Below are positions 16,636 to 61,067 of a stretch of 64,000 nt of DNA, piece by piece. The stretch is from a candidate division KSB1 bacterium. GTDB taxonomy: Bacteria; Zhuqueibacterota; Zhuqueibacteria; Residuimicrobiales; Krinioviventaceae. The stretch is from NCBI GenBank assembly GCA_034521575.1, contig JAXHMJ010000005.1, positions 2,046,001 through 2,110,000 of the forward strand. Direction: 5' to 3'. Numbering within the stretch: position 1 is the stretch's first letter; each line of letters opens with the position of its first letter. The notes below the pieces were generated by a model. The model was given only the letters and a program-made list of their open reading frames with translations, was not told where the DNA came from and did no database searches. The position numbers and the translations under genes are program-made.

Positions 16636-17555
16636 ATGGAAATTATGAAATTAAACTGTTTTTTCCTGTTTTTTATATTTCTTCTTTCTTGTAACCAGCC
16701 AACCGATAATAATAATGAAAGAGATTCACCCTCTTTTATGAAGGATGTGTGCCCAATTTGGTCCCCAATTACAAATAAAATCGCTTATATTCATGGCGGA
16801 AAGATTACAACTCCTGGTGTTTATTTAATCAACCCGGATGGGTCGAATAATCATTTATTATTTAGTTCAGTTGTGGTTGATAATATAATATGGGGTAATA
16901 GTGAATATGAATTTATTTTCGATGCTTACAAGCAAATCTGGTGGTACAATTATGAAACGGGCAGTTCTTTTCAAATTACCAATACTCCAGGAGGAAATTT
17001 TTTCCCGTCACTTTGTCCAAATGGTAAATTCAGTTCTATATTCAAAATCAATTGGTTCGGATAATTATAAAGCGTGGTATTTGGAAAATAAATACAGATG
17101 GAACAAAAGATCACCTTTTAATTGAATATGGTACGCAACCTTGTTATATGGCCGATGGAAAAATGTTTGTTTATTGTGATTATGCTGATAGAGCGCAAGT
17201 ATATAAATATTTTATTAACGATAGTAGTTTAGAAAATTTGACAAATATGAAGTGGAATTGTTTACTCCCCAAAGTTTCTCCCGATGGTAAGCTAATTGTT
17301 TTTATGCACTATGCAAACTATTTGGATTACTATAATATTTATATAATGAATTCCGATGGTTCAAATCTGCGTTTACTAACAACAAAAGGTTACTATCCAT
17401 CTTTTTCACCTGATAGTAAGTGGGTGGTTTACACGAATACAGACAGCAGGGATGGGCGTATATGGAAAACAAGTGTGACAGGAGGTGAGAAAATAGCCGT
17501 TACTCCGCCGGCTCCGGATAGTTATTTTGATGAACATGATAATTCACCGAAATGA
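16636..17555 (+). pseudogene. TolB-like (PD40) lipoprotein, two frameshifts
   Basis: It begins with a lipoprotein signal (FFLFFIFLLSCNQPTD, Cys at the lipobox), then PD40/TolB propeller repeats such as VCPIWSPITNKIAYIHGGKI and SDGSNLRLLTTKGYYPSFSP-type units. The reading frame must change twice, near 17026-17036 and near 17065-17078, to connect the parts; the repaired protein would be about 305 residues. The last 210 bases are duplicated at 13694-13903. Relatives are periplasmic or surface propeller lipoproteins of unknown binding partner. It is followed 22 bases later by another gene of the same type, so the locus was probably a small tandem family. Confidence 0.75.
17346..17555 (+). repeat. 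Direct repeat, copy 2 (partner at 13694-13903)
   Basis: The 3' end of the TolB-like lipoprotein gene, matching 13694-13903 almost perfectly. The sequences diverge right after the shared stop codon (AAATGAAA), so the repeat boundary is the gene end. Confidence 0.92.
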
Positions 17556-17577: not shown

Positions 17578-18175
17578 ATGAAGGCTACCACAATATACAC
17601 ATTACTCTTTCTGCTGCTTTTAACTGTAGCATGCCATGTAACCGAACCGAACAAGAAGGCTCACCGTAGACCTGATAATGAGACGATTGCATGTGTTTCA
17701 GACTTGGTGATATGGCTTCGTCTGTTGCAATCACATATAATTGTCAAGAATTGATTAATCTCAAAACACGAGGTACGTTTTATGTGGACTGGTCGCCAGA
17801 TAAAACGATGCTTGTCTATTGCAAACATTATAATATTGAAAACGGGATACGGGTTGAAATCTGGACAATGAATTCCGACGGATCAGAACAAAAGAGGATA
17901 AGTGGAACCGATACGTTGTGCTATTTTCCTGAATTTTCCCCCTCGGGAGATAAAATCATGTATACAGCTACAAACCGTTTTAGCACACGAATCGTGGTGT
18001 GCGATGTGAATGGTAATTTCAAAAAAACGGCGCTCACCTCGTTTCAGGCCACAAACATCGATACAAGCTGCGTGTACGGTATGGACTGGAAGAATGAAAG
18101 TGAGATCATATACAACTACTGGGGTAGAGGAATGACCGGGTATATGAAGGCAGCCTCTTATAAAATAAACAGTAA
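17578..18175 (+). pseudogene. Second TolB-like (PD40) lipoprotein, frameshifted and 3'-truncated
   Basis: It starts with a lipoprotein signal (TIYTLLFLLLLTVACHVTEP) at 17578, then shifts frame near 17690-17700. It continues with two PD40 repeats, visible as YVDWSPDKTMLVYCKHY with WTMNSDGSEQKRISGT, and FPEFSPSGDKIMYTATN. The propeller stops abruptly near 18175, where the sequence joins the middle of a TonB-dependent receptor gene. About half of a normal TolB-like protein remains. Base composition is intermediate between the AT-rich island and the GC-richer receptor. Confidence 0.72.
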
Positions 18176-20389
18176 AGAACATTTTTCATTGGCGTTTCTG
18201 ATGTCAATATCTATACACCGGACTCCAATCGGGGGGCAGCCTCGGACTCGACCGGTCGGTTTACACTCACGCTTCCCGGCGGGGCTCACAGGCTCTGTTT
18301 TGCGCATGTCGGCTATGAAACAAGGTGTCTGCAGGTGGTCGCGCATCCGGATTCCCCGGCTGTGATACCGGATGTGGCATTGACAGCACGGGTGCTTGAG
18401 GGCAAACAAGTCAGTGTGCAGGCGTACGGAGACGTTGCCAAGCTCGACCAGTATGAGGTATCAGGCGCCCGGGCGGGACGACCACCAATCCCCTGCCGGA
18501 ATCCGCTTTTAACGTTAAAGACGCTGCCGGGGGTGTGGTCGGTCAATGATCAGAGCGGCAAGTTTCAGGTGCGGGGCGGCAGTTACGATGACAATCTCAT
18601 TGTGATCAACGGTGTCGAGATCGAGCAGCCGCATCTGGTGCGCAAGGGCGTGATGGAAAATCCCTCGCTGATCAATCCCTATCTGGTGGACGCCATCAAA
18701 CTGAGAACCGGGGCGTATCCCGTGACCTATGGCGACCGTCTTGCCTCGGTTCTGGATGTCACTTACCGGAAAAACGACAGTCAACAATGGAGCGGCCAGG
18801 TCAATGTGTCCATGGTCGAAGCCGGCGTCGCTCTGTTTTCACCCGAATCCGAAACCTTTAATTTCAGCACCTCTGTCAGGCGCATTGACTATGGCCATAT
18901 CTACAAATCACAGCACCGGCAGGGAGAGTACAACCCGGATTTTTACGACTGGCAGAGCCTGTTCAGCTGGAACCTGTCAGACCGGCACAAATTCAGCGGA
19001 TACGCCGCACTGGCGCGCAGCCGTTACCGGTCAGAGCCTTCGAGTGTGAAAGCGGTGCCCGGTTTCCCCGAGGCTCCGCAATACAGCATCCATGAATCAG
19101 GACAAGAACGCTTTGATCACAATACGGGTGTTTTGGGGATTCAGTGGAACGCGGACTGGACCAAGAGCTGGTCCACGCTGGTGAAATCCTCCATCGTTGT
19201 GCAAAACGAACGCGAAGACACCCAATTGTATACGCAAATTATACCCCTTGATGACGAAGAACTGCCGGATTCCGCTCTGACACTGGACGGGCGCCGGGAA
19301 TCCTATGACAACGCGTTTACCCACCGGCAGGTTCACGTTCATATGCGAACCCGATTCCAAACTCCGCTTCAGCAATTGATATTCGGGGTCGAAGGCCAGT
19401 GGCTGAATCAGGACCTTGATGCGGATGAAGCGGTGTCCGGCAATTATCAGCTGCCGGGTGATGCGGTCGGTCCGGTTCAGCAGGATATTCTCTGGAACAC
19501 CTCAGGCACCGCCTGTTTTCTGCAGTATCAGCGCGATCTGTCCGCTCTTTTCAAAATAAATGCGGGCGCGCGACTGTTTCGTTATGCGTTTAACAAAGAG
19601 ACGGTGTTCATGCCGCGCCTCGGATGCCGATACCGGGTGACGGATCACACAGAGACGGCGTTTCATATCGGACGCTATGCACAGCCGCCGTTGTACAGGG
19701 AAATCCAACACGTACCGCTTCAAGACCGGCCTGCGTTGAAAGCCCAGAAAGCCTGGCAATCCACACTGAGCCTGCGGCAGACACTTCCCAACCGGCATTA
19801 TGTGCAGATGGAAGTTTACTATAAAACAATGAGCGACCTGATTTCCTATGACACCTATGATGTGCGCACCCTGTATTCCGGTCAAAACGACGCCAAAGGC
19901 TATGCCTACGGTCTGGACGCCATGCTGTTCGGAGAGTTTGTCCCGGACTGTATCAACTGGATCAGTTACGGATATCTGATCGCCAAAGAAGATCTGATCT
20001 ACGATTCCGAGGGCTGGGTGAACCGGCCGTCCGCACAAACGCATACCCTGAGCTTTAATCTGCAGGACAAGATGGAGCGCTTTCCGGGATCACGCATGCA
20101 TTTGCGCATTCTCCTGGGAAGCGGATCATACTATACGATTTATTATTCAAAAGACGACGAAATACTGACATCTGCCCGAAACGCGGGACGGCTGCCTCTG
20201 TATCAACGGTTTGATCTGGGACTGACGCAGCGGTTTACGTGGAAGGGATTTAAATTTACCTTCAAAGAAGAAGTGCTGAACATGTTTGATCACACCAATG
20301 TGCTGAGCGCAAGCTGGTTTGAAAACACGCTTGTCAAAACCTATCTGAGCGGCATCAACTACAATGTGGGAGTCCGGGTGGAATTTTAA
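18176..20389 (+). pseudogene. TonB-dependent receptor lacking its 5' end
   Basis: An outer membrane receptor for uptake of an unknown ligand. The frame is open from 18176 to the stop at 20389 (about 737 codons) but has no ATG, signal peptide or first strand of the carboxypeptidase-regulatory-like domain. The domain is entered part-way at GVSDVNIYTPDSNRGAAS and continues with STGRFTLTLPGG and FAHVGYETRC. The plug follows (LTLKTLPGVWSVNDQSGKF, QVRGGSYDDNLIVINGVEIE), then a long beta barrel ending in F (NYNVGVRVEF). The only early start would be a GTG at 18335, after the regulatory domain. That would yield a receptor without export signal, so the gene is most likely non-functional or the product of a recombination joint. 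Confidence 0.82.
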
Positions 20390-27247: not shown

Positions 27248-30200
27248 TTATTCAGAGTGTTCAACCATACGGTCATATCCATAAAGCATATAGCCGCTCC
27301 AAAAAGCCGGATGCCTGTCAATATCACGAAAAACCGTCTGCCTGGCCAACTGCAAAGCTTTGGCCGGAGGATGCCCGTCGACCTGATACCGGAAATATCG
27401 TTTGGTCAGTACTGCTGCCGCGGCCGGAATCCGCGTAAAAGGTACTGAACAAAATCAGAGGATGTTGATAAAGTCGCAACGTGTACGGAAGCAAAATATC
27501 AGCTCCCGCGCGCCACATCCCCGTCCGGTTCATTTGATGTTCACTGAGCACAATCTGATATCCGGGCAAAGCATGCTGAATCAAAAACCCGAGCTCCAGT
27601 TTGTCCCCCAAGGTGCTGTCCGGGGACAGAGCAACAAAAGACCGCAGGGGATCAACAGAATCACTGCGTGCCGGACAGTTAAACAGCAGCGAAAACAAAC
27701 CGGAATCCGGTCGGGAAACATTTGATACGGTAGCACCTTTTCCCTGCAGTAAATTCACAGTATAATCATAGGATAGATCTCTGGCCAACATGCGGGAATA
27801 GGGCGATTGTGAATATTCTATCCTCAGAGGTTCTACAACCGTTTTGATGCGCAGATCAGCGGACGCAGGATCGGGAAGCGCGGTCATTTCAGACAATTGA
27901 TTGGCTCGTGACCAATGATGCGTCAGGCCCAGCCATTCTTCTCCGGACCTCAGAGCGGCGAACGGCAGCAATTTTAGCTTGCCGTATGCGATAATCACCA
28001 CCTGATCGAAGGAATTCAGCGATTTTTCCCAGGGTTTGATCACAGTGTCGTACAGATAATTCGGTTCCTGGCCCAAATCCTGTGCGGTTTGCAGTTTCAC
28101 GAGAAACTGCTCCAAAGTTTGTTCAAACTCCGGCTGTATCAATTCCTTGCGGTCAAAGCGCACATTATCCGGTTCAATACCCCACGAATAAAGGTAATTA
28201 TCTACAGCTTTAAAGATTAGAGTGACCGTATTTGAAGGGCGGCTGCCGGACAGCGTGTCCTGGCCCGGGATGACCAGTTGTCTCAGGGGTTCAGAGACAT
28301 CCGGATTTTGATAAAGTTGATCCAGATCGGCATAACTTTTATCAACCGGGTTGCGGTTGACCGTATCCGAACGCGTCAAAGCATAACGATATTCCCACTC
28401 GTGTTCGCACACAATCTGATTCAGTGAATCCCGGGCGCTGAGGAAAGACCTTAGAGAACCGGGAAAATCGGCGGAATATCTGGAAAATTGGCGAATCCGG
28501 TGCAGTTGTTCAATACGATCCGCAAGCAGCAGCGCCTGACGGGGACGATCGTTGTTTACAAAAATGTTGAAAAGTTGTTGATAAATCAACCAATAATCAG
28601 GCGAATCCATCAGCTTTAATTGGCTGCCGTATACAGAAGCGAGTCGTGTTTTCAGAAGATTCAACGCCTCTGTGTGCATCGTCCATCCCAGGCTGTCATT
28701 GACTCCCATGTTGTGACGGGCAACCTGGGTCATGGCAGCGGCCTGCAGAAGCGGGTAGGCATAATAGCGGGCGCTATCCAGGGCTGAACGCGCCGCATTC
28801 AGCCCTTCCTGTTTTTCATAAAGCAAACTTGACAAAAGATGTCGCTTGATATCTATTTCTACATTCTGAAGAGAATCGTTGATCTGTTGAACAATCAGAT
28901 TCGTCTCCATCGCTTTCAGTTTCAAACCCTGTTCCCGGTACAAATAAGCCATTTGCAGCAAATGACGCGCACGATTTAGAGGCTGCGAGTTGACGGAATC
29001 GAGATCGGCCGCGGACTGTAACTGAAAAACAGCGGAACGGTGGTTTTGCCATTTCCGATCCAGCCAGGCCAGGGTTTCGAGAACCTGAGAGCGCTTCTGG
29101 GACTGCGGGCCCGTAGATTCCAGAGCTTTATAAGCGGTACTCACAGCAGATTGCATGTCATGAAACGCGGCCTGAACCCGGCTGATTTGAAGCAAAAACT
29201 GATAAAGATCACTCTGCCCGCCGTTCGCCCGATAATACTGAAGCGCAGTTTCCGCGGCTTGTTTTGCCGCATAAGGATTGTTATTGATCATATGTAATCT
29301 TGAAACCTGCAGTACAATATCCGCCGCAGTCCCGGGATACAGGTCAGGATCAATGAGGTTTCGCGCTTGCTGAGCGTACTCGTACGCATTGTTGAACAAA
29401 TCCATTTGAGCATAGAGTTCGGAAATCCGTAAAAGATGCTGCGCAGATCGTTCCGGCAAGTCTGCAGATTTGAGCAATTCCAGAGCCTGGATATGAACAC
29501 GACGCGCCTGAACCGGTCGATTCTGTTGGCTCCAGATATCCGCAATATGCCGGATGCATTCAGATTGATCAGCAATCCGGTTTTGACCGGCATAGATTTG
29601 CGCCGCCTCCTGATACGCCCGAATGGCCTGTTCATACTCACCGCCGCGCTGATAGATCGCCGCCGTTTCTTCAAGCATACGTCCTTCATCCGTGGATAAT
29701 CCGTATTCTTTGACCAGATGATTGTATTCCTGGCGGGCGTCAATGGCCTTACGGCTTTCCTGCTGCTGATTGTAATAATAAGCGAGGTTGAAATATCCGG
29801 CTGCCATATTCTCCACATTATGGTGCTGCCGGGCCTGCTCGATGAGTTGTTGTTGCAGTGAAACGGCTTCATCCCACATCGCTCCGTTCACGGCACATTC
29901 CAGCATCCGATTTAACAACGGTACGACCTGTTCGGTCCATTCAAAATATCTGTAAACAGTCAAAGCACGATGATAGATAGATAACGCCTGTTGAAATTGA
30001 TGGTCATCAAACGCCTGGTCGCCTCGCTGCACCAGCTGCTCCACATTATCCTGGCGGGACTTGAGCTCTTCTTCAGGGGTCATCCCTTGAAAACCGTAAA
30101 GATAGCGGGAGGTGAGATAATGCGACTCTTCTCCGTGGAAAGCCTGGTGCACCGTCGTTTCCCTGAGGTTCCTGTAAAACTCGTCATAATAGGAATCATC

Positions 30201-33200
30201 TTGGTTGGACACGGTTAAAACTAACGTGCCGATTCCGCTGTATAACAGAGTTTGTTCCAGGGCAATCATCGCCTCTTCGGCTTGATCCGGCGGTTCTGAC
30301 AGGTCCAGTACCAGACAATACGCATTCTGCCGGTACCGGAGAAAATCCTGAACCGCCAGCTTTTTCAATCCGGAAAGTTCCAACACAGATTTTAAAGGCG
30401 CCATTGCATTGACCTGCAAACGCCCGGCGAGATGAATGATATGCGCTCCTCCCCATCCGGACAGAGAATCCCGGGGGATGATCTGATAATTCAGAGCGGA
30501 AAGAGTATCTCCAAGGGCAGCGGAAAACGAACCGGCAATGCGGTCGCCGGAAATATGCTCCTGCATATCAAATTGATAATAGCTGTACAAGCTGCTGTTC
30601 AGCCGGATAATCCGGGGGAACCGGGTATTCGGTCGAACCTGTTCATCGAACCAGGGATACAGCAAAAAAGAACGATCGGGAATCACAATCAGTTGATCCA
30701 CATCCGGATACTCGGAAACAGGCTGCAAAAGCTGTTTTACAATTTCAATTTGATCCAGGCGCTGCAAGCGTTCAGAGTCTGCCTGCAGATCATTGATCTG
30801 ATAATCGACCGGAATTTGAACAAGTTGAATGGTATCACGGGTGATCAGCCAGACCAGGCTTTTTCCATCTATATGGGTTTGATAATAAACCATTTGCCCC
30901 TGTAACAGATGTGTTTGTATACGGGCGGCAGGAATGGTTACCGGTTTCAGGTACGGCAGGAGAGCGGGTGCAGAGTTTGAAATTTCAGTCAGAATCGAGT
31001 CATATCGGGCCTGAACCGTCTGTATGGGTTCCTTGTCTGCATTCAGCGCCGGTTGTTTTCCCGTCGTGATTTGTCCGTTATGCTGACGGGTGCGAAGCCT
31101 GTCGCGCAAACTCGCAGCCTGCTGGAACATCAGGTTATGAGACGGATTTGCAAAGCGGGGATTTGACCGTTCCGATATGCGCATGAACGTAGCGGCCCGC
31201 ATACGCTGCGCACAGGCCAGGGCATTCAAGGTATCGCCTCGTTCAACAGACTCCTGAATTGTCAGCTTGTAGGGATTCTCATACAGGTTTAATACGGTTT
31301 TAATATCCATTCCCGGAAGGTCCAGAAATTCAGTCTCCAGCGCATTTAGAGCCTGTTGATAATAGTAAAGAGCATCCCGGGCATTCAGATTTTGTCGCAC
31401 ACTGTCCGGTAAACGCTCGGCAATCAGCCCAAGCTGAGTATAGGTTTTCCAGACCAAATCGGGACGTTGTTGTTCTCTGGCCAGGTTCAAAGCATTTCGC
31501 TGCAAAGAAAAGGCTTTGTCCATGTCCCCCCATTTTTTTTGCAATTTACCAATTTTGTATTGAAGCGCTGCAGTTTGTTCATCTTGTTGATAGGATTTGC
31601 TGATGCGCAGAGCTTCTTCAAGATGATTTAACGCTTCCTGTGAATGTTCCAGAGCAAACAGAGTGGCGCGCATCTTGTCTACCGGATTCGGACTGTTATA
31701 ATGCAGCGGATCCACCATAACAGCATCCGCGCGGTAGGCGTGAAAATCAATCAAATCGCGGTAATAACTGCGCTCTTTTGTGCTCAGCTGTTCAATGATC
31801 ACAGCGGTTCGTTTTAAAAGCCAGCGTCTGGCCTCTTTAAAGGCCGGACGCTCCGGGAGATCCCGGCTGCGAACCCGCGCCAGAAAAATTTGTCCGGCAT
31901 TGCGGAGATTCAGAGCCTCACCGGCAATATAGTTGGTTTTCCTGCATTTCCAATAGGCTTCTCTGAAATGATCCCAGGCGTTCTGATAATCTCCCCGCAG
32001 GTAATTAATATACCCCATATTGTTGTAAACAATCGCCACCGCCTCATAATCATGTTCCTTGAGATACAATTGCTGCTTATCCTGATAATACTCCAATGCC
32101 CGGTCAAAATCATCCCGTGCCAGGTGAGTTTGACCCAGAATACTGTAAATAAATGCGGTTTCATCCATCGAAGAAAAACTGAGTGTGGACTGCAGTCCGA
32201 GGCGGCGCAGATCATAAGGGACCGGAACGTACAAACCGAACAATCCGAGTTCGATATAAAGCGGCTTGTCTTCGCTCTTTGTGATCAAATCGCTTTTCAG
32301 CAATGACAGGGCTTTTTCCGCATACCCGGCGGCCTGGTCGTAGTTTTGCAATTTGTTGTTATTGTGAGCAATGCTTCGATAACTGCGCATCAACCCGTTG
32401 TATAAATTCAGCCGCTGTTCAATCTGCATGGCCTGTTTATAATACTCTACAGCATTTTCATGATTACCGTCCAGCTCATACAGCAGCGCCAAACGTTTGA
32501 GACTCGACAGGGCTCGTTTGTCCTGATCCAGTTCCTGATACAGACGTACGGCCCGGGTCAGATAAGGAACACCGTTTGTCAAATCTTCAAGTACAAAGGC
32601 ACAATGTCCCATTCGTTCATAAATCAAGGCTTGCTGGTTTTTGTCCTTGAATGTATTGTCATACTTTAATTTCAGATGATAATACCGATAAGCATTTTCA
32701 AACCCGAATTCGCCCAGATTATAATAATTATTGGCCATATTCAATGCCAGTCGGGCTTCCAGTTGAGGAAACTGAGACTCGTCGTTTAACGCCAGCGCCC
32801 GGCTGAGTTCACGAATGGCCTGCTCATAATAACGCACTTTTTGATCCCGGGTCCAAAAGGTAACCGTATCGTACAGCCAGAGCAATGGATCGACAATCGT
32901 GTTCAGAGCGCGTTTTAAAAACGGTTTTTTTCTATCCTTCAAGGCCTGATAATAGGTTTCAAGAGCCTCATAATTATAGCTCAACGTCAAATACGCGTCA
33001 ATCAGTGTGTAATCCAGCGCCAGTGCACTGTGCAGGAACGTATTGGATTCTTTGAGAACTTTGGGTCTCATTTTGAAGACGCTGTTTTCGCGTTCAGCAG
33101 CGGCTGTGGCTTGATAAGAGAGAGCGAGGCCGGCGCTGTAGAGAATAATATTATTATCAGGTAATTGTGCACTCAGAACCTTGTATTCTTTAACGATTTC

Positions 33201-35402
33201 ATCAATTTGCCGGGCAGCCTCCAAGCATTGAATATATCCGCGGTGTGCCGGCAAATAATTGTTATCGATACTCCAGGCGCGCTTGAACACCACCGCAGCC
33301 AATTTAATGTTACCGCGTCTCTGTAACTCGGCGCCGGTTTGCAAAAGTCCTTTAAGCAGCAACTGTTTAGCCTGATCCGCCCACCGGGGATGTTCCGGTT
33401 CCAGCGAATTCATGAGTGAATACAATTCCTCATGAAAAGCTTGAAACTCTCCGGTTTTCAGGTAAAGTTCAGCACGCTGCAAGCGGGCAGTCAGCTGTTG
33501 GTCGCTGGAAACGTTTTTGTCATCGACAATGGTTGTATAGAGTGTACGGGCCGAATCCATCTCACCCTGAGACTGCAGCAAGTCCGCAGCCCGTAACCGT
33601 GAGGCAGCAGACAATCTCGGAGCATGCCGATTTTCCCGCGCCGTATGTATATATTGTGCAATTTTTTCAGTCCGGGTTAATTCCCGGGTGACAATCGAGA
33701 AAAATTGCTGCTGCGCCCGCGGGCTCCATTCCGCATGATAAAGGGAATCCGTCAGCAATTCGGAAAATCCGTTCAGGGCCCGGTCGGTTTTCCCCTGTCG
33801 GTTTGCCACCCTGGCAATCATATAGCGGCTTTGAGCCCGAACATCCGTATTATCGTCAAACTCCGTCATCATCGATGAAAAAGCCGAATGGGCGGCATTA
33901 AAATTTCCGGCACGGAACAACAGATTCGCTTTTAAAAGCGCAACATGAGCCTGCATTGACCGGGGAATATCGTTTTGCATGCTGCTCAGGCTGTCATAAA
34001 AGGCCGTCCAACTCCGATCCAGGTCACCGTGACGCTGCTCTAGATCCAGGGCAACTCTGAGGATTTGTCCCAATGTCTGGATGTCTACCTGATTCCGATA
34101 CTTTGATCTCAGCGAGTCCAGAACCTCACCGGCTTGACTGTGCATCCCCAGCAGCCAGTATCCGATGCTCTGTTCATACCAGGCATTAGCGCAGAGCTGT
34201 GTCGAGTCTGGAAACCGGTCTATCAGGGTTCCAACGGCTTCGGTCCGACTCCAGATCACCTGTTGCTGCGCAAAACTCAGGGAATCCTGTTCATAAAACA
34301 AAATATCCAGAGACGATGAAGACCATTGATGCGGAAGCTGAAAGGAATTGATTGCATGATTAAATTGATCACGGGCAGTTTCAAATTCGGGCATGGCATT
34401 GCTGTCCGGGCGCGTCCAGACGTCAAAATTCCCTTTGACCCGAGATGCAAAATAAAAACGTTGGTCTCTGCCCCATTCCGGTTGCACGGCGTTGAATTGA
34501 GGAAACGTAACCGGGCGCGGAGTCCTGTTCGTGTTCAGGGTATCGCTCCCCAAGGAACGTGCTACACTGGGGCGGATGTCCTGAACGGACAATATGGCCT
34601 GATCGGCCAAAGTGATTTGCTGATCCCCATTGGTATCCTGCTGCCGCCTGACAAATACAATCTTTTGTTCATCGGGGGAAAACATTGGAAATCCGTCCAT
34701 TGCAGCACCGCGGGTGACTTTATAAACCGGCGGCTCGAAGGTAAACGCAAAATTGATCCGTTCGATAGTACGGCGCGCTTCTTCCACATTCATAAACCAG
34801 ATATCGCCGTGATTGTCGTCCGACGACCGGAAGGATGTAAACACCAGATATTCATGTCTGGGACTCCAGCAGGGATGTGTAGCGCCATTAAACGTGATCT
34901 GGCGGATCAGTTTGTGCGGGCCTCTGTTTTGCAGCCAGATATTGTCCAGACCTGAACGGTCGGAGACCCAGACAATCTGTCGTCGCGCCGAAATACTGGG
35001 ATAGGCATCCAGACCCTTGTACTCGGTTAATTGCTCGGGAGGTTTGCCCGCATAAATGTAATCGTCCTTTTCGTTCAGCACCAGCCGGTACAAATCACCT
35101 TTGGCGTCACTGCGTTGAGAGACAAAAACAATATATTCGCTTTTGGGGTCCCAGGCCGGCTGATAATCATCCGCCTTGTGAAACGTGACTTGATAGGACA
35201 TCGCGGTGCGCATATTACGTATCCAGATGTCATTATTTCCAGATTTTTTTGATGTATAGGCAAGCCATTTGCCGTTCGGCGACAGCCTCGGAGTCAAATC
35301 CTGGTTCGGATGTGTGGTGACCTGCCGGAATGGAACAGCCGCAGGCAAATAACCGGCGCTAAACAACCAAACACTGCAGAGTATGATTAAAAATTTAGCC
35401 AT
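27248..35402 (-). CDS. Giant exported TolB-propeller / TPR / CHAT-like / TPR / CHAT-like protein (frameshift near its end)
   Basis: The uninterrupted frame gives 2,692 residues, ending at 27324. A one-base correction in the A4 run at 27437-27440 (TTTT on the coding strand) extends it to a stop at 27248, about 2,717 residues. That restores a typical CHAT ending (VLTKRYFRYQVDGHPPAKAL, then HPAFWSGYMLYGYD). Order: signal peptide (1-22); TolB/PD40 propeller (about 25-335; SPNGKWLAYTSKKSGNNDIW); long TPR array (about 345-1490); CHAT-like domain (about 1497-1770; VIPDRSFLLYPWFDEQ); second TPR array (about 1790-2310); second CHAT-like domain (about 2387-end; NYLYDTVIKPWEKSLNSFDQ). CHAT proteases use His and Cys. 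Here those places read IIHLAGRL and LVLDLSEPP in the first domain, LLFNCPARSD and VLSEHQMN in the second, so both look inactive. Probably a periplasmic or surface scaffold. It is last in a run with AsmA-like and DUF1318 genes. Confidence 0.82.
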
Positions 35403-35411
35403 GAGTCTCCA

Positions 35412-35963
35412 TCACTTTTTGGGTTTTTCAAGCCAGCGTCCATCCTTCGTCTGGATCAGAGTTTCAGGAGGCGACTCTTCCTGGCGCATCTGCGCGAGTA
35501 TTCTTGCCACTTTGATACTGTCGGTTTTAGACACGGAAATATTGGCTGCGATCAACCGTTGATAAATCATACTCCGGCTTTTATTTTCCAGATCAACGCG
35601 CTCATGGGTCCATAGATGATAATCCATATCATTTTCGTATTTTTGTCCGCCCAGAATGTCCAAAAAGCCTTTATTGTTTTCTCCCACCGTCTGGTCGCGT
35701 TTTAATTCATTGATATCATCGCTATAGAACCTGCGATTTTCCAGCGCGTCCTGAACCGCGGTCTGCTGACCGTCCCGCGCTTGAATAAAAGCAACCTCTC
35801 CGCTGCGCGCCGAAGCAGTCAACCAGGTTTGATGCTGAATCTGTTCATGGGTGCCCAGAATTTGGCTTTCAATGACCGTTTTTTCGCCTGTCAGAGTGAT
35901 TTCCGGCGCCTTGATGCTGCACCCCATGAAAGACAAACTGAACATTATTAAAATCCACCGCAT
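35412..35963 (-). CDS. DUF1318 (YdbL-like) lipoprotein
   Basis: A 183-residue lipoprotein. I start at the ATG at 35963, which follows GGAGGCGTCT and opens directly into the lipoprotein signal MRWILIMFSLSFMGCSIKAP; an upstream in-frame start would overlap the AsmA-like gene. After the Cys comes PEITLTGEKTVIESQILGTH. The C-terminal third (ENKSRSMIYQRLIAANISVS, then TLIQTKDGRWLEKPKK) resembles DUF1318, the family of E. coli YdbL. In E. coli, ydbL lies in an operon with ydbH (AsmA-like) and the lipoprotein gene ynbE. Here the gene sits directly after an AsmA-like gene, the same arrangement. It precedes the giant gene by nine bases. Confidence 0.75.
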   Translation of the reverse strand: MRWILIMFSLSFMGCSIKAPEITLTGEKTVIESQILGTHEQIQHQTWLTASARSGEVAFIQARDGQQTAVQDALENRRFYSDDINELKRDQTVGENNKGFLDILGGQKYENDMDYHLWTHERVDLENKSRSMIYQRLIAANISVSKTDSIKVARILAQMRQEESPPETLIQTKDGRWLEKPKK

Positions 35964-35985
35964 AGACGCCTCCAGAAAACCACGT

Positions 35986-38900
35986 TTATTGAAATAAATA
36001 ATTAATCGGTATGCGTGTAAATTCAATCCGGCTGCCGCTCAACCGCACGGGCATGTACCAGGGTTGTTTGAATGAAATAGACGGATAAAAATAACCGTTT
36101 TGGATCTCAAAGGAAAACAGTCTCGGTTTCAGTCCCCGGTTCAGCAGCATACGAGCCGAACGGATTCCTGAATCTTTGCCTTTGGGATCCATAGATCTCA
36201 GCAGATTATCTGCGAATTTAGAGCCGATCGTGGTAATATAAAAATACCCATTCAGATCAATTCCGGCTTGAGGATCTATGCTTTTTCCATCAATCTCGGT
36301 ATTGGCATTGACAACGCTTTCTTTCTTTTTTCCGGGAGTATCCGGCATCATTAAAGCGGAATTGATGCCTGCTATGTGCGAAGAGAGCCTAAACGTCACC
36401 TGATCCGGCGCCTTGCCCGCCGCGTCCATAGAAAAACGACCGCCGATGTTTCCATCGTACAAGTTGACATAAAAATTCGGGATTTCCACATGTCCGCGTC
36501 CCAAATATCCTTCGATAACCGCCTCGGTCAATCGGTAAGCGCCAATTTTGAGCGAATCTATGGTGATTATACTTTTTTCCTGACGGCTGAAATAATCCTG
36601 ATGCAGCGCATAATCGGGCGCTGAGTGGAAGGGGGTCTGGACCAGGGAATAATCCCGTCCGGTGAACAATCCGGTGTTCAGATCAAATCCCTGATCTACG
36701 AATAAATCCACCTGGATATTTTCAACAATTCCGCCGGGGGCGAAATACAAATTGATATTGTGACCGTTCACAGCCGCTGTCAAACCTATTTGTGAGGTGT
36801 CCGCATCGACCTGAACATCCGCGTTCAGGCTGCCGATCAACGAAACATCATCCGTCACATCAATCATTCGGGGAGGCGACAGATTCACCTGCGCCCGGGC
36901 CGTGCCGGCTGTAGAGGGCAGTGTATACACATCGGATAACAGCATCGCCTTTAAATACAAATCCGGGACTGTTAAAACGGTTGTATCAATATGATAATGT
37001 ATAAAATCAGTGGTATTGAAACGGTAATCCAGATTTGTATTGTAGAATGGCTGTGACCGCATGGATTCCAGCAGCGCTTCTTTGCAGGTCAGGGTGCCGT
37101 TAACGGCAACACCCACTTTTTCATCCAGTTCTGCGGTCAAATGCACTGAAACGCCGGACAATTCGGCATCCGGAGTGATGATTTTTGTGGTGCTGTCCAT
37201 ATTCAGCTGCACCGATGCTGCATAATTCATTCCTTCGATCCCGAGATGTCCCTGCGCCTCGGCCTGCAAGCGGGTCACACCGCTCAGAGCAATATCATTT
37301 TTAACGCTGGCCGGCAGCGGCAAAATCTCCAGCAAAGGATGATGATCCAGAGCCAGTTCCGGCATTTCGAAACTGAACAGGATACCGCGGGTAACGTTGA
37401 TGCTGGCCCTGGCCTGGGCGGAAAGTATATCATTCAAGGCAACATGAAAAGAATCGATGGTAATATTCTGAAACAATGTATCGCTTTGGACGCGCAGGTG
37501 ATTGTCAAGTCGAAGCGGAGGAATTGAGTAACTCAAATCATCCTGATAGAATGTGAGTTCATCCGTCGAACACAAAATGTGCGCAGTCATGGAATCCAGA
37601 GTATTGGCGGTGAAATCTATTTTTGTGTCAAAATGCCCGGCAAGGGGAAAATCAGGGATTTGTTCAAGATCAAGATGCGCAAGTTCGAACGTACCGGACC
37701 CGGTCAGCCCCTGAACACCGCCATTACGCGAGTACAGATTAAAGCGGCTGAACAATGCCGCATTCATAATATTGGGAAAGTCCAGTGTGAACCGCGCGCG
37801 TGAAGGATAAAATAAACGCGTCAGCTGGGTTTTAATATCCAGGCGCCCCGGTCCCGATGTGACAGGAATACTTTGTGGTTGTTTTACAAAGAGAGAGTCG
37901 TAATGCAGAATTATATGCGGTTCGGTGCTTTGGTGTTGTAGACCCGACAACTTTGACGTGAATTGAGCGCTCAAGTTAAAGTTTTGCAGCAAGGCTTCTC
38001 CGGAATTAACGGTTATTCCGAACCGATCCAGTTTTAGTTCCGAATGCAGTGTCCACGGCAGAGAAGATGTGTCATGGGGGGCGTAACCATTGATTCCGGT
38101 TCCTTTCAGAGACAGATACGAATTGGGGTTGTGCAAATAATAATCCCAAAGCAGGGTATCCGGGATAAAAGGCCGGGCCAGAGTCAGCACATCTTTTAAC
38201 GGGATTCGGCTTTCAATCACCTTGAAATCAATAAAAGGCCGGGTGGACAGACTGTCTGCTTTGCCCTGGATCTGCAACCATTCATATTGTCCGATCTGCA
38301 GGGCAATCGGATTGAAGATGATTGATTCCCGGTGCCCATCCAGTACTGCAACCGTTTGCAAAGACACCGGAAACGGTAATTTATAGCGAAATACAGAGTC
38401 TTGGATCACCTGTTCGAACGAGAGTTCGGATATCTCTGTGTTCATTTGCAGCAAAATATCGCTCAGAGATCGGAAAGTTAGGTTTGATACAAAATTCAGG
38501 TTGGTGTTCAGAGACAAACTACCGGACGGAGTCGTTTGTTCAATCCTCACGGGCGAATTTTCAGCGCTGAGTTTAAAATCCCCGCGAACTTTTGCCTCCG
38601 GCGCCAAAACATTACCCCGGGGCAGATAGAACTCTTTGATATTCAGGCTGATGTTGCCGATATGGAGCGTCTGTTGGCTGGTGTCATTATGGGCGCTGAA
38701 CCTGATTTCTGCATGGTTGAGTGAAATTTCGCGAATATCGACTGTAATGGGAATGTCGCTTTCAACCGAATCGAGTTTTTTCTCGTCACGAACAACATCT
38801 GCCGAGTCAGAATCTTGCGGAGGCGGCATCGGAATATTCAGCGTAAAATCGGCGGAATCAATCACGAGTTTATGAAATACCAGCTGTTTTCGCAGCAGGG

Positions 38901-39243
38901 GAACCAGGCTGTATTTGAACTGAATACGGGCTGCGTGTTTTACGGTGAGTGGGAAATCAGAATCCGTTGACGAATCCGGATAAAGGCGGATGTTCCTGAA
39001 CTCAAATCCGTTGAAAATACTGAAATGCACCCCCTGCATCTCCAGATTTTGTCCCAGATGTTCTTTTAAAAGACGCGATGAAATATTTTCAACCCGGCCG
39101 GGGGTAAGATACCAGTTGAGGGAGAAAACCGCCAGGCCCACCAGCGCAACTGCAAAAAGAACAAGCACAAGCAAAAAGATACAGAATCGGCCGAAAAATG
39201 AAGGCTTTCGGCCGGATTGGTGCGATCCGGATCGAGATTTCAT
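35986..39243 (-). CDS. AsmA/YdbH-like envelope-spanning protein
   Basis: A 1,085-residue protein with one N-terminal membrane helix (FCIFLLVLVLFAVALVGLAV, about residues 20-40). The AsmA-type opening follows (WYLTPGRVENISSRLLKEHL, GVHFSIFNGFEFRNIRLYPD). The rest is a very long series of beta strands (for example LDIKTQLTRLFYPSRARFTL) ending in a YdbH/DUF-like C-terminus (GRGHVEIPNFYVNLYDGNIG; RGLKPRLFSFEIQNGYFYPS). AsmA-like proteins such as YhdP, TamB and YdbH form hydrophobic grooves that move phospholipids between the two membranes. The neighbouring DUF1318 lipoprotein supports the YdbH branch. Start ATG at 39243 with AGGAG. Lipid transport is inferred from family and context. Confidence 0.8.
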   Translation of the reverse strand: MKSRSGSHQSGRKPSFFGRFCIFLLVLVLFAVALVGLAVFSLNWYLTPGRVENISSRLLKEHLGQNLEMQGVHFSIFNGFEFRNIRLYPDSSTDSDFPLTVKHAARIQFKYSLVPLLRKQLVFHKLVIDSADFTLNIPMPPPQDSDSADVVRDEKKLDSVESDIPITVDIREISLNHAEIRFSAHNDTSQQTLHIGNISLNIKEFYLPRGNVLAPEAKVRGDFKLSAENSPVRIEQTTPSGSLSLNTNLNFVSNLTFRSLSDILLQMNTEISELSFEQVIQDSVFRYKLPFPVSLQTVAVLDGHRESIIFNPIALQIGQYEWLQIQGKADSLSTRPFIDFKVIESRIPLKDVLTLARPFIPDTLLWDYYLHNPNSYLSLKGTGINGYAPHDTSSLPWTLHSELKLDRFGITVNSGEALLQNFNLSAQFTSKLSGLQHQSTEPHIILHYDSLFVKQPQSIPVTSGPGRLDIKTQLTRLFYPSRARFTLDFPNIMNAALFSRFNLYSRNGGVQGLTGSGTFELAHLDLEQIPDFPLAGHFDTKIDFTANTLDSMTAHILCSTDELTFYQDDLSYSIPPLRLDNHLRVQSDTLFQNITIDSFHVALNDILSAQARASINVTRGILFSFEMPELALDHHPLLEILPLPASVKNDIALSGVTRLQAEAQGHLGIEGMNYAASVQLNMDSTTKIITPDAELSGVSVHLTAELDEKVGVAVNGTLTCKEALLESMRSQPFYNTNLDYRFNTTDFIHYHIDTTVLTVPDLYLKAMLLSDVYTLPSTAGTARAQVNLSPPRMIDVTDDVSLIGSLNADVQVDADTSQIGLTAAVNGHNINLYFAPGGIVENIQVDLFVDQGFDLNTGLFTGRDYSLVQTPFHSAPDYALHQDYFSRQEKSIITIDSLKIGAYRLTEAVIEGYLGRGHVEIPNFYVNLYDGNIGGRFSMDAAGKAPDQVTFRLSSHIAGINSALMMPDTPGKKKESVVNANTEIDGKSIDPQAGIDLNGYFYITTIGSKFADNLLRSMDPKGKDSGIRSARMLLNRGLKPRLFSFEIQNGYFYPSISFKQPWYMPVRLSGSRIEFTRIPINYLFQ

Positions 39244-59181: not shown

Positions 59182-60824
59182 TCAGGCTTTCGGACATTCG
59201 GCGGCAATATCTTTCTCTACTTTGCCGGCAAAATTTGCTTCAAAATGGCCTTTAAATTTTTCAGCCAGCTTTTTAGCTGTACTTTCAAATGCCTCTTTAT
59301 CAGTCCAGGTATTGACCGGATTGAGAATATCAGCCGGAACATTCGGACAGGACTGCGGCACCAACACCTTGAATATGGGATCCGGCTTGAAATCGACAGG
59401 GTCGAGCTTACCGTTCAGAGCCGCGCGCACCATTGCGCGTGTTAAATTGATATCAATCCGATGGCCGACACCATAGGCACCGCCTGTCCAGCCGGTGTTT
59501 ACGGTGTAAACCTGAACGTTGTATTTTTTCATTTTATCACCCAAAAGACCAGCGTAATCAGAGGGGTTTCTCGGCATGAACGGTTCACCAAAAAACCGGG
59601 AAAACGTGGCCTGGGGTTCTGTTACGCCCGTTTCCGTTCCTGCCAATTTGGATGTATAGCCCATAATGAACCAAAACATGGCTTGTTCCGGTGTCAATTT
59701 TGCGATCGGCGGCAATACGCCGTATGCATCTGCAGCCAGAAACAAAATGGTGCTTGGATGTCCGGACGTTGAGGACTCTTTAATATTGGAATTATAGCAA
59801 AGGGGATAAGAAGCCCGGGAGTTGGGAGTAAACCTGTCATCATTGAGATCAAATGAACCATCAGGATAAACCATTAAATTTTCGACCATGGAACCATGCT
59901 CAAGATAGTGGTCCGGGTGAAAAGTCGCGTGAAATATATCCGGTTCCTTATCCGGATTCAAGTTAACGAGTTTCGCATAGCAGCCGTTTTCAAAATTGGC
60001 GATTCCGTTTTGATTCCATCCGTGTTCATCATCCCCCAAAAGAGATCGTTCAGGATCAGCGGATAATGTGGTTTTTCCGGTTCCCGACAACCCCAACAGC
60101 ATGGCGCTTTTTCCATCAGGTCCCTCGTTCGCAGAACAATGCAAAGGAAGAATATTTTCCCGGGTAAATAATAATTCATAACCGTAAAAATCAGCTTTTT
60201 CATGGATCCCATATAGGCGGACCCGTAGACAATCCCGATTCTTGATTCAAAATCCATAGCCACACAAATGGTGGAGGCGCCGCCGTCCGACAACGTTCTC
60301 AGTCTGTTCTCATAGCGTTTTGATTTGAGGTAATCACAAGGCAGCGCCAAAAGTGTAAATGGTTTGTCTACAAAAATACTCTTTTCGATATCGTTTGGTA
60401 CGGGACGGAACATATTATCAGTGAACAGCGCACTCAAAGGATTATCGGTCACGGTCAATATGGGCAGTGCGTAATCGGAATCCGCTCCAACCACACGCTT
60501 CAGGGCATAAATCCTGTCTTTAGATTTCAATGTGCTCAAAGCATCCTGAAACACCATTTCAAATGTATCCGGAGCCAGCTCGATACAGTTTGGCGAGCTC
60601 CAGTCAATATTATCAGAGGTTCCCGGTCGTTTTACCAGGTAAGTATCCATAGGGCTTCTTCCGGTAGAATGTGCAGGAGTCCATGTGGCCAGAGTTCCTG
60701 TATTCAGTACAATGGCACATCCCGATGCCACGGAATCATTGATCATCTTTTTCCTGGCCGGGTTGTTGTACACCTGATTCACATCATTGAGGATTCCACA
60801 GACTTGTTCTCGATACGATTCCAT
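59182..60824 (-). CDS. pckA: Phosphoenolpyruvate carboxykinase (ATP), interrupted by one frameshift
   Basis: Converts oxaloacetate to phosphoenolpyruvate in gluconeogenesis. The gene reads in two frames, starting at the ATG at 60824 (AGGGAG site) and ending at 59182. They join if one T is restored near 60166-60171, where the coding strand reads TATTATTT; the repaired reading is NYLFTRENILPLHCSANEG and gives about 547 residues. All motifs are then present: RSPMDTYLV, AYMGSMKKL, GLSGTGKTTLSADPERSLLG (P-loop), GDDEHGWNQNGI and NTGWTGGAYGVG. A single lesion in an otherwise perfect central-metabolism enzyme suggests a sequence error, or very recent inactivation. Confidence 0.88.
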
Positions 60825-61067
60825 TGACTGCTCCCTATGTTTTAGAATACCCGAATAGCACCCCATGCTTGACAAAATTCATTTGATCGGTTCAAAACAA
60901 TCCGATGCTTAACAACCCACGTAGAAATACAAGGCTTTAACGGGACATTGGAAAGAACAGCTAAATATCTCATTTTTCCCAGCTAAGAAAATAGCCAATT
61001 TTCACAATAAACACAATCTTTTTTTAACATTTGCTCCGGGGTGTTCAAGTACAAGACTATAACAGGT

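Follow-up and report, generated by a model that had tools for sequence, protein, structure and literature searches.

A giant exported protein of KSB1 bacteria with two CHAT domains, both predicted to be catalytically dead in the copy analysed, encoded beside AsmA/DUF748 and DUF1318 genes

TPR-CHAT (Csx29) of Craspase, a type III-E CRISPR system, resembles the giant exported protein described here in placing a separase-like CHAT fold after a TPR array. It is the best structural match of the giant's first CHAT domain (CHAT1; PDB 8d9f, Z 19.5) and among the top sequence matches of its second (CHAT2; E 1e-9). Csx29, however, is a CRISPR component of some 700 aa that binds Cas7-11 and has a single active CHAT domain (His-Cys dyad H585/C627; PMC9729208), whereas the giant is exported, has two CHAT domains, a propeller and other partner genes, and has lost its dyads. 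The bacterial transmembrane protein DdvA (PDB 8rot) also gives CHAT-fold matches (Z 14.5 to CHAT1, E 1e-7 to CHAT2), but by its record title it is a transmembrane anti-sigma factor, with a CHAT topology that is itself deduced. We know of no propeller or AsmA operon for DdvA. A ciliary central-apparatus C1 protein (PDB 7n6g, chain 1N), very large and part of a structural assembly, likewise contains a separase/CHAT-like fold (Z 16.1), but it is eukaryotic and offers a parallel at most. For the genes beside the giant, the comparison is with the YdbH-YnbE-YdbL locus of Escherichia coli, which also brings together an AsmA-superfamily protein, a lipoprotein and a DUF1318 protein, and whose YdbH and YnbE function in carrying phospholipids to the outer membrane (PMC8593681, PMC12977461, PMC11784454). 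The E. coli locus has no giant CHAT protein, and its YnbE and YdbL are separate proteins.

The giant is encoded on the minus strand of the window (the 64,000-nucleotide stretch analysed here, from a candidate division KSB1 bacterium) in an open frame of 2,692 aa at 27324–35402, and orthologues of about 2,650–2,880 aa are found in most genomes of the same phylum. All parts named in the original prediction are present, in the order signal peptide, TolB-like propeller, TPR array, CHAT1, TPR array and CHAT2. The signal peptide (approximately residues 1–26; 35323–35402) is a hydrophobic N-terminus just ahead of the propeller; 36 of the 37 anchored homologues have such a segment immediately N-terminal to their propeller, and a few of them show a possible lipobox there. 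The TolB/PD40 beta-propeller (about residues 25–350; 34353–35330) matches PF07676 (E 5e-24) and TIGR02800 (E 2e-22), the latter through its propeller repeats only and not as the whole TolB of Tol-Pal (80 bits versus a cut-off of 343 bits). TPR array 1 (TPR1; about residues 351–1460; 31023–34352) is recognized by TPR_12 and other models (best TPR_12 E in the giant 2e-29), and TPR array 2 (TPR2; about residues 1791–2290; 28533–30032) by SNAP and TPR_12 matches from residues 1842–1966 onwards. Each CHAT domain is thus directly preceded by a repeat array of the kind that accompanies CHAT. Since the CHAT1 and CHAT2 profiles also align with each other over 350 columns (E 9e-51), the giant carries a duplicated TPR-CHAT unit. 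It fits a protein of the TPR-CHAT type in a new setting, the fold itself not being new.

At the C-terminal end the CHAT model PF12770 matches in two minus frames, at 27549–28058 in the main frame and at 27278–27421 in another, which points to a frame offset near 27425. Behind it, the C-terminal end of CHAT2 occupies 27248–27424; this other frame ends in HPAFWSGYMLYGYDRMVEHSE directly followed by the stop codon (27248–27250). The original prediction of about 2,717 residues ending at 27248 therefore holds when the final part is translated in the other frame, while the main frame itself stops at 27324. The offset is probably an assembly error, because a gene for an ATP-type PEP carboxykinase (PEPCK) in the same window (59182–60875, minus strand) is also divided between two overlapping frames (model positions 2–194 and 199–464), itself a likely assembly indel. 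A programmed frameshift is unlikely, given this second split and the orthologues, which cross the point in one frame. Since the offset lies downstream of both CHAT2 catalytic motifs, it leaves the reading of those motifs unaffected, and the other-frame tail is ruled out as the source of a catalytic pair. As a separate observation, two plus-strand genes of the window may also be split: a PD40/DUF5050 protein (16636–17555) over two frames, and a TonB-dependent receptor-like gene (17691–20389) near 18335–18365, with the Plug domain only in the second frame.

CHAT1 (residues 1460–1790; 30033–31025, minus strand) barely matches PF12770 in the window's protein (E 0.041), and the family model is matched in 29 of 35 homologues, at best with 2e-32. 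Its AlphaFold model (pLDDT 88, pTM 0.86) matches Craspase TPR-CHAT, Csx29 and separase with Z scores of 16–19.5 over about 290 residues. We fixed the catalytic columns by merging the CHAT1 and CHAT2 alignments. In the window's CHAT1 the His column holds Arg and the Cys column Ser; the Cys is absent from all 35 aligned homologues, and the His is found in only two of them, the window's protein not being one. This points to CHAT1 being the old pseudo-protease copy from the TPR-CHAT duplication, and by its sequence we class it as an ancestral pseudo-protease. The domain evolves fast (24–35% identity).

CHAT2 begins at about residue 2270, and its main-frame part spans 27425–28595 (minus strand). 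It scores 27.1 bits with PF12770, above the cut-off of 24, and its predicted structure matches Csx29 in Foldseek (E 2e-9). As this model is poor (pLDDT 70), the fold is assigned mainly from the family match and from orthology. Designed-PPR entries that head its PDB match list were set aside as short helical repeats summed. In the merged alignment the His column of the window's CHAT2 holds Pro and the Cys column His, and no intact His-Cys pair was found elsewhere in either CHAT domain. Both domains of the window's protein are thus predicted to be catalytically dead. This bears out the original prediction of a secreted, CHAT/caspase-type double-domain protein without His-Cys pairs, whose four motifs (IIHLAGRL and LVLDLSEPP in CHAT1, LLFNCPARSD and VLSEHQMN in CHAT2) had been correctly placed. 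Conserved loss, which it had named as support for its claim, held for CHAT1 and failed for CHAT2. The CHAT2 pair is kept in 23 of 28 readable rows of the merged alignment; in a larger set, made up of the window's protein and 45 orthologues, 33 sequences have an intact pair (SCHGE / SACETG), seven have lost it and six end before the motif, so that 33 of 40 are intact. Most family members therefore look, from their sequences, like secreted proteases with one pseudo-protease and one intact CHAT domain. The window's genome also encodes a second TPR-CHAT protein (L069:851-4352; G000:C2, ~366.8-370.4 kb) with an intact HFATHA / SACETG pair, spread over several frames, a sign either of many sequence errors in this stretch or of gene decay.

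In a tree built on residues 1–1440, the proteins with a dead CHAT2 fall into two separated clades, one comprising the window's protein and those of G004, G007 and G009, the other belonging to family f3 (G015, G019). By this placement the CHAT2 dyad would have been lost at least twice, once in the window's lineage, and the doubly dead form is secondary. Intact proteins share 54% identity with one another in TPR2 and 46% in CHAT2, but lost and intact proteins share only about 20% in either region. The propeller changes less between the two comparisons (52% against 46%), as does TPR1, where lost and intact proteins are still 33–36% identical (52% against 36% for its first part). The TPR2 and CHAT2 regions thus appear to have lost constraint jointly in the window's lineage, with the propeller and TPR1 held better. 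A short form of 1,646 aa, encoded in the complete genome G028 (L119:6973-11910) immediately downstream of the AsmA and lipoprotein genes, consists of the propeller and TPR1 only and gave no CHAT match. Together with the decay in the dead lineages, this form indicates that the TPR2-CHAT2 half behaves as a removable unit.

Two partner genes lie directly upstream of the giant, also on the minus strand. One encodes an AsmA/DUF748-family protein of 1,085 aa (35986–39243; AsmA E 2e-7), a candidate inter-membrane lipid bridge, and the other a lipoprotein (35412–36026) in which a lipobox (MGC) and an N-terminal motif, TGEKTxLExQxLG, are fused to a DUF1318 (YdbL family) domain (E 4e-8). DUF748 was matched in all 19 homologues of the AsmA protein, none of which matched the YdbH model PF11739, a difference from E. 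coli YdbH. All 20 homologues of the lipoprotein matched DUF1318, and none had a Pfam match to a YnbE family; the lipobox Cys is invariant and the fused N-terminal motif conserved. Most KSB1 loci with sufficient flanking sequence show the same gene order: AsmA/DUF748, then DUF1318 lipoprotein, then giant. An operon shared with lipid-bridge relatives suggests a role in building the cell envelope.

Presence and absence across 82 genomes bear on whether this neighbourhood reflects a common function. The giant and DUF1318 occur together in 56 genomes and are both missing from 20, with four genomes having the giant only and two DUF1318 only (Fisher P 3e-13, a value that overstates independence because the genomes share descent). 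All four giant-only genomes are incomplete, and none of the 53 genomes with at least 90% completeness is of this kind. The two DUF1318-only genomes, G076 (L110) and G064 (L112) of family f15, carry a canonical YdbH-YnbE-YdbL-like triad instead, with PF11739 matches in both and a YnbE-like lipoprotein of about 61–64 aa (assigned by judgement). We consider it unlikely that the link to AsmA and DUF1318 is mere shared descent of gene order, with the giant doing some other periplasmic job. Such a reading draws on the conservation of order over a wide block, in which the three genes are often preceded by those for Hsp20, Lon and UDPGP, so that proximity alone is weak evidence. Against it, besides the 20 joint absences, the giant and DUF1318 are paired even when unlinked, which argues for shared function: they are on different contigs in G030, and both searched Delongbacteria genomes with the giant also have a non-adjacent DUF1318 gene, which in one of them (L115) encodes the same fused lipoprotein as in KSB1.

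Two other readings concern the CHAT domains. The window's copy could be on its way to a pseudogene, its second half, dyad-less and frameshifted, being irrelevant and little function being left; the frameshift near 27425, the fall of TPR2-CHAT2 identity to about 20% and a long branch (1.2) would agree with such decay. We find this quite improbable, since 8 kb are still open with a coding-like codon-position composition through the end of CHAT2, three relatives with a dead CHAT2 have frames of 2,765–2,808 aa, the propeller and TPR1 are still 30–43% identical to those of intact orthologues, and assembly indels can explain the frameshift. Somewhat less improbable, though still rather doubtful to us, is that CHAT1 is an allosteric switch of CHAT2, as in other pseudoenzyme pairs, and that the family works chiefly as a secreted protease under regulation. 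The retention of a dead CHAT1 in nearly all homologues, the many intact CHAT2 domains and the duplication of a unit of the same order would suit a switch; the persistence of CHAT1 in lineages without the CHAT2 dyad argues against one.

We judge it probable, if only just, that the giant is exported and serves as scaffold for an AsmA-type lipid-bridge system with a DUF1318 lipoprotein, the CHAT protease being an accessory in most species and missing from the window's protein. In such a scaffold the propeller and TPR1 would keep the AsmA/lipoprotein machine in place, CHAT1 would offer a surface for binding or regulation, and TPR2-CHAT2 would be, in most species, an accessory cysteine protease cutting an envelope client. 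In the window's lineage, with the dyad gone and TPR2-CHAT2 freed of constraint, the protein would act only as a scaffold. Of the two roles first suggested, envelope scaffold or peptide receptor, the scaffold gains support from the operon and from the relatives that keep the propeller and TPR1, while nothing supported the receptor. Several points speak against the scaffold: the death of CHAT2 here need not mean that the scaffold role is the part retained, CHAT1 evolves faster than would suit a tight scaffold surface, Pfam's YdbH model finds no match in the AsmA protein of the operon, and DUF1318 occurs without the giant in two genomes, though there within the YdbH-YnbE-YdbL-like triad.

More tentatively still, and as a possibility that we would not call probable, KSB1 and Delongbacteria may have an undescribed AsmA-type envelope machine with the giant as its third part, in which CHAT1 is a permanent pseudo-protease and CHAT2 a protease acting on the lipid bridge, by trimming or licensing it, that has been repeatedly switched off to leave a pure scaffold. 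In the open-licence literature we found no report of a separase/caspase-like fold in outer-membrane biogenesis, and no paper linking CHAT to pseudoprotease, AsmA, KSB1, TolB or DdvA. If these predictions are correct, the giant would place this fold in outer-membrane biogenesis. It would also provide a series from nature, with CHAT2 active, CHAT2 dead or the CHAT region missing, for post-catalytic roles of a protease fold, and name a co-inherited partner for the DUF1318 lipoprotein in phyla that lack a genetic model.
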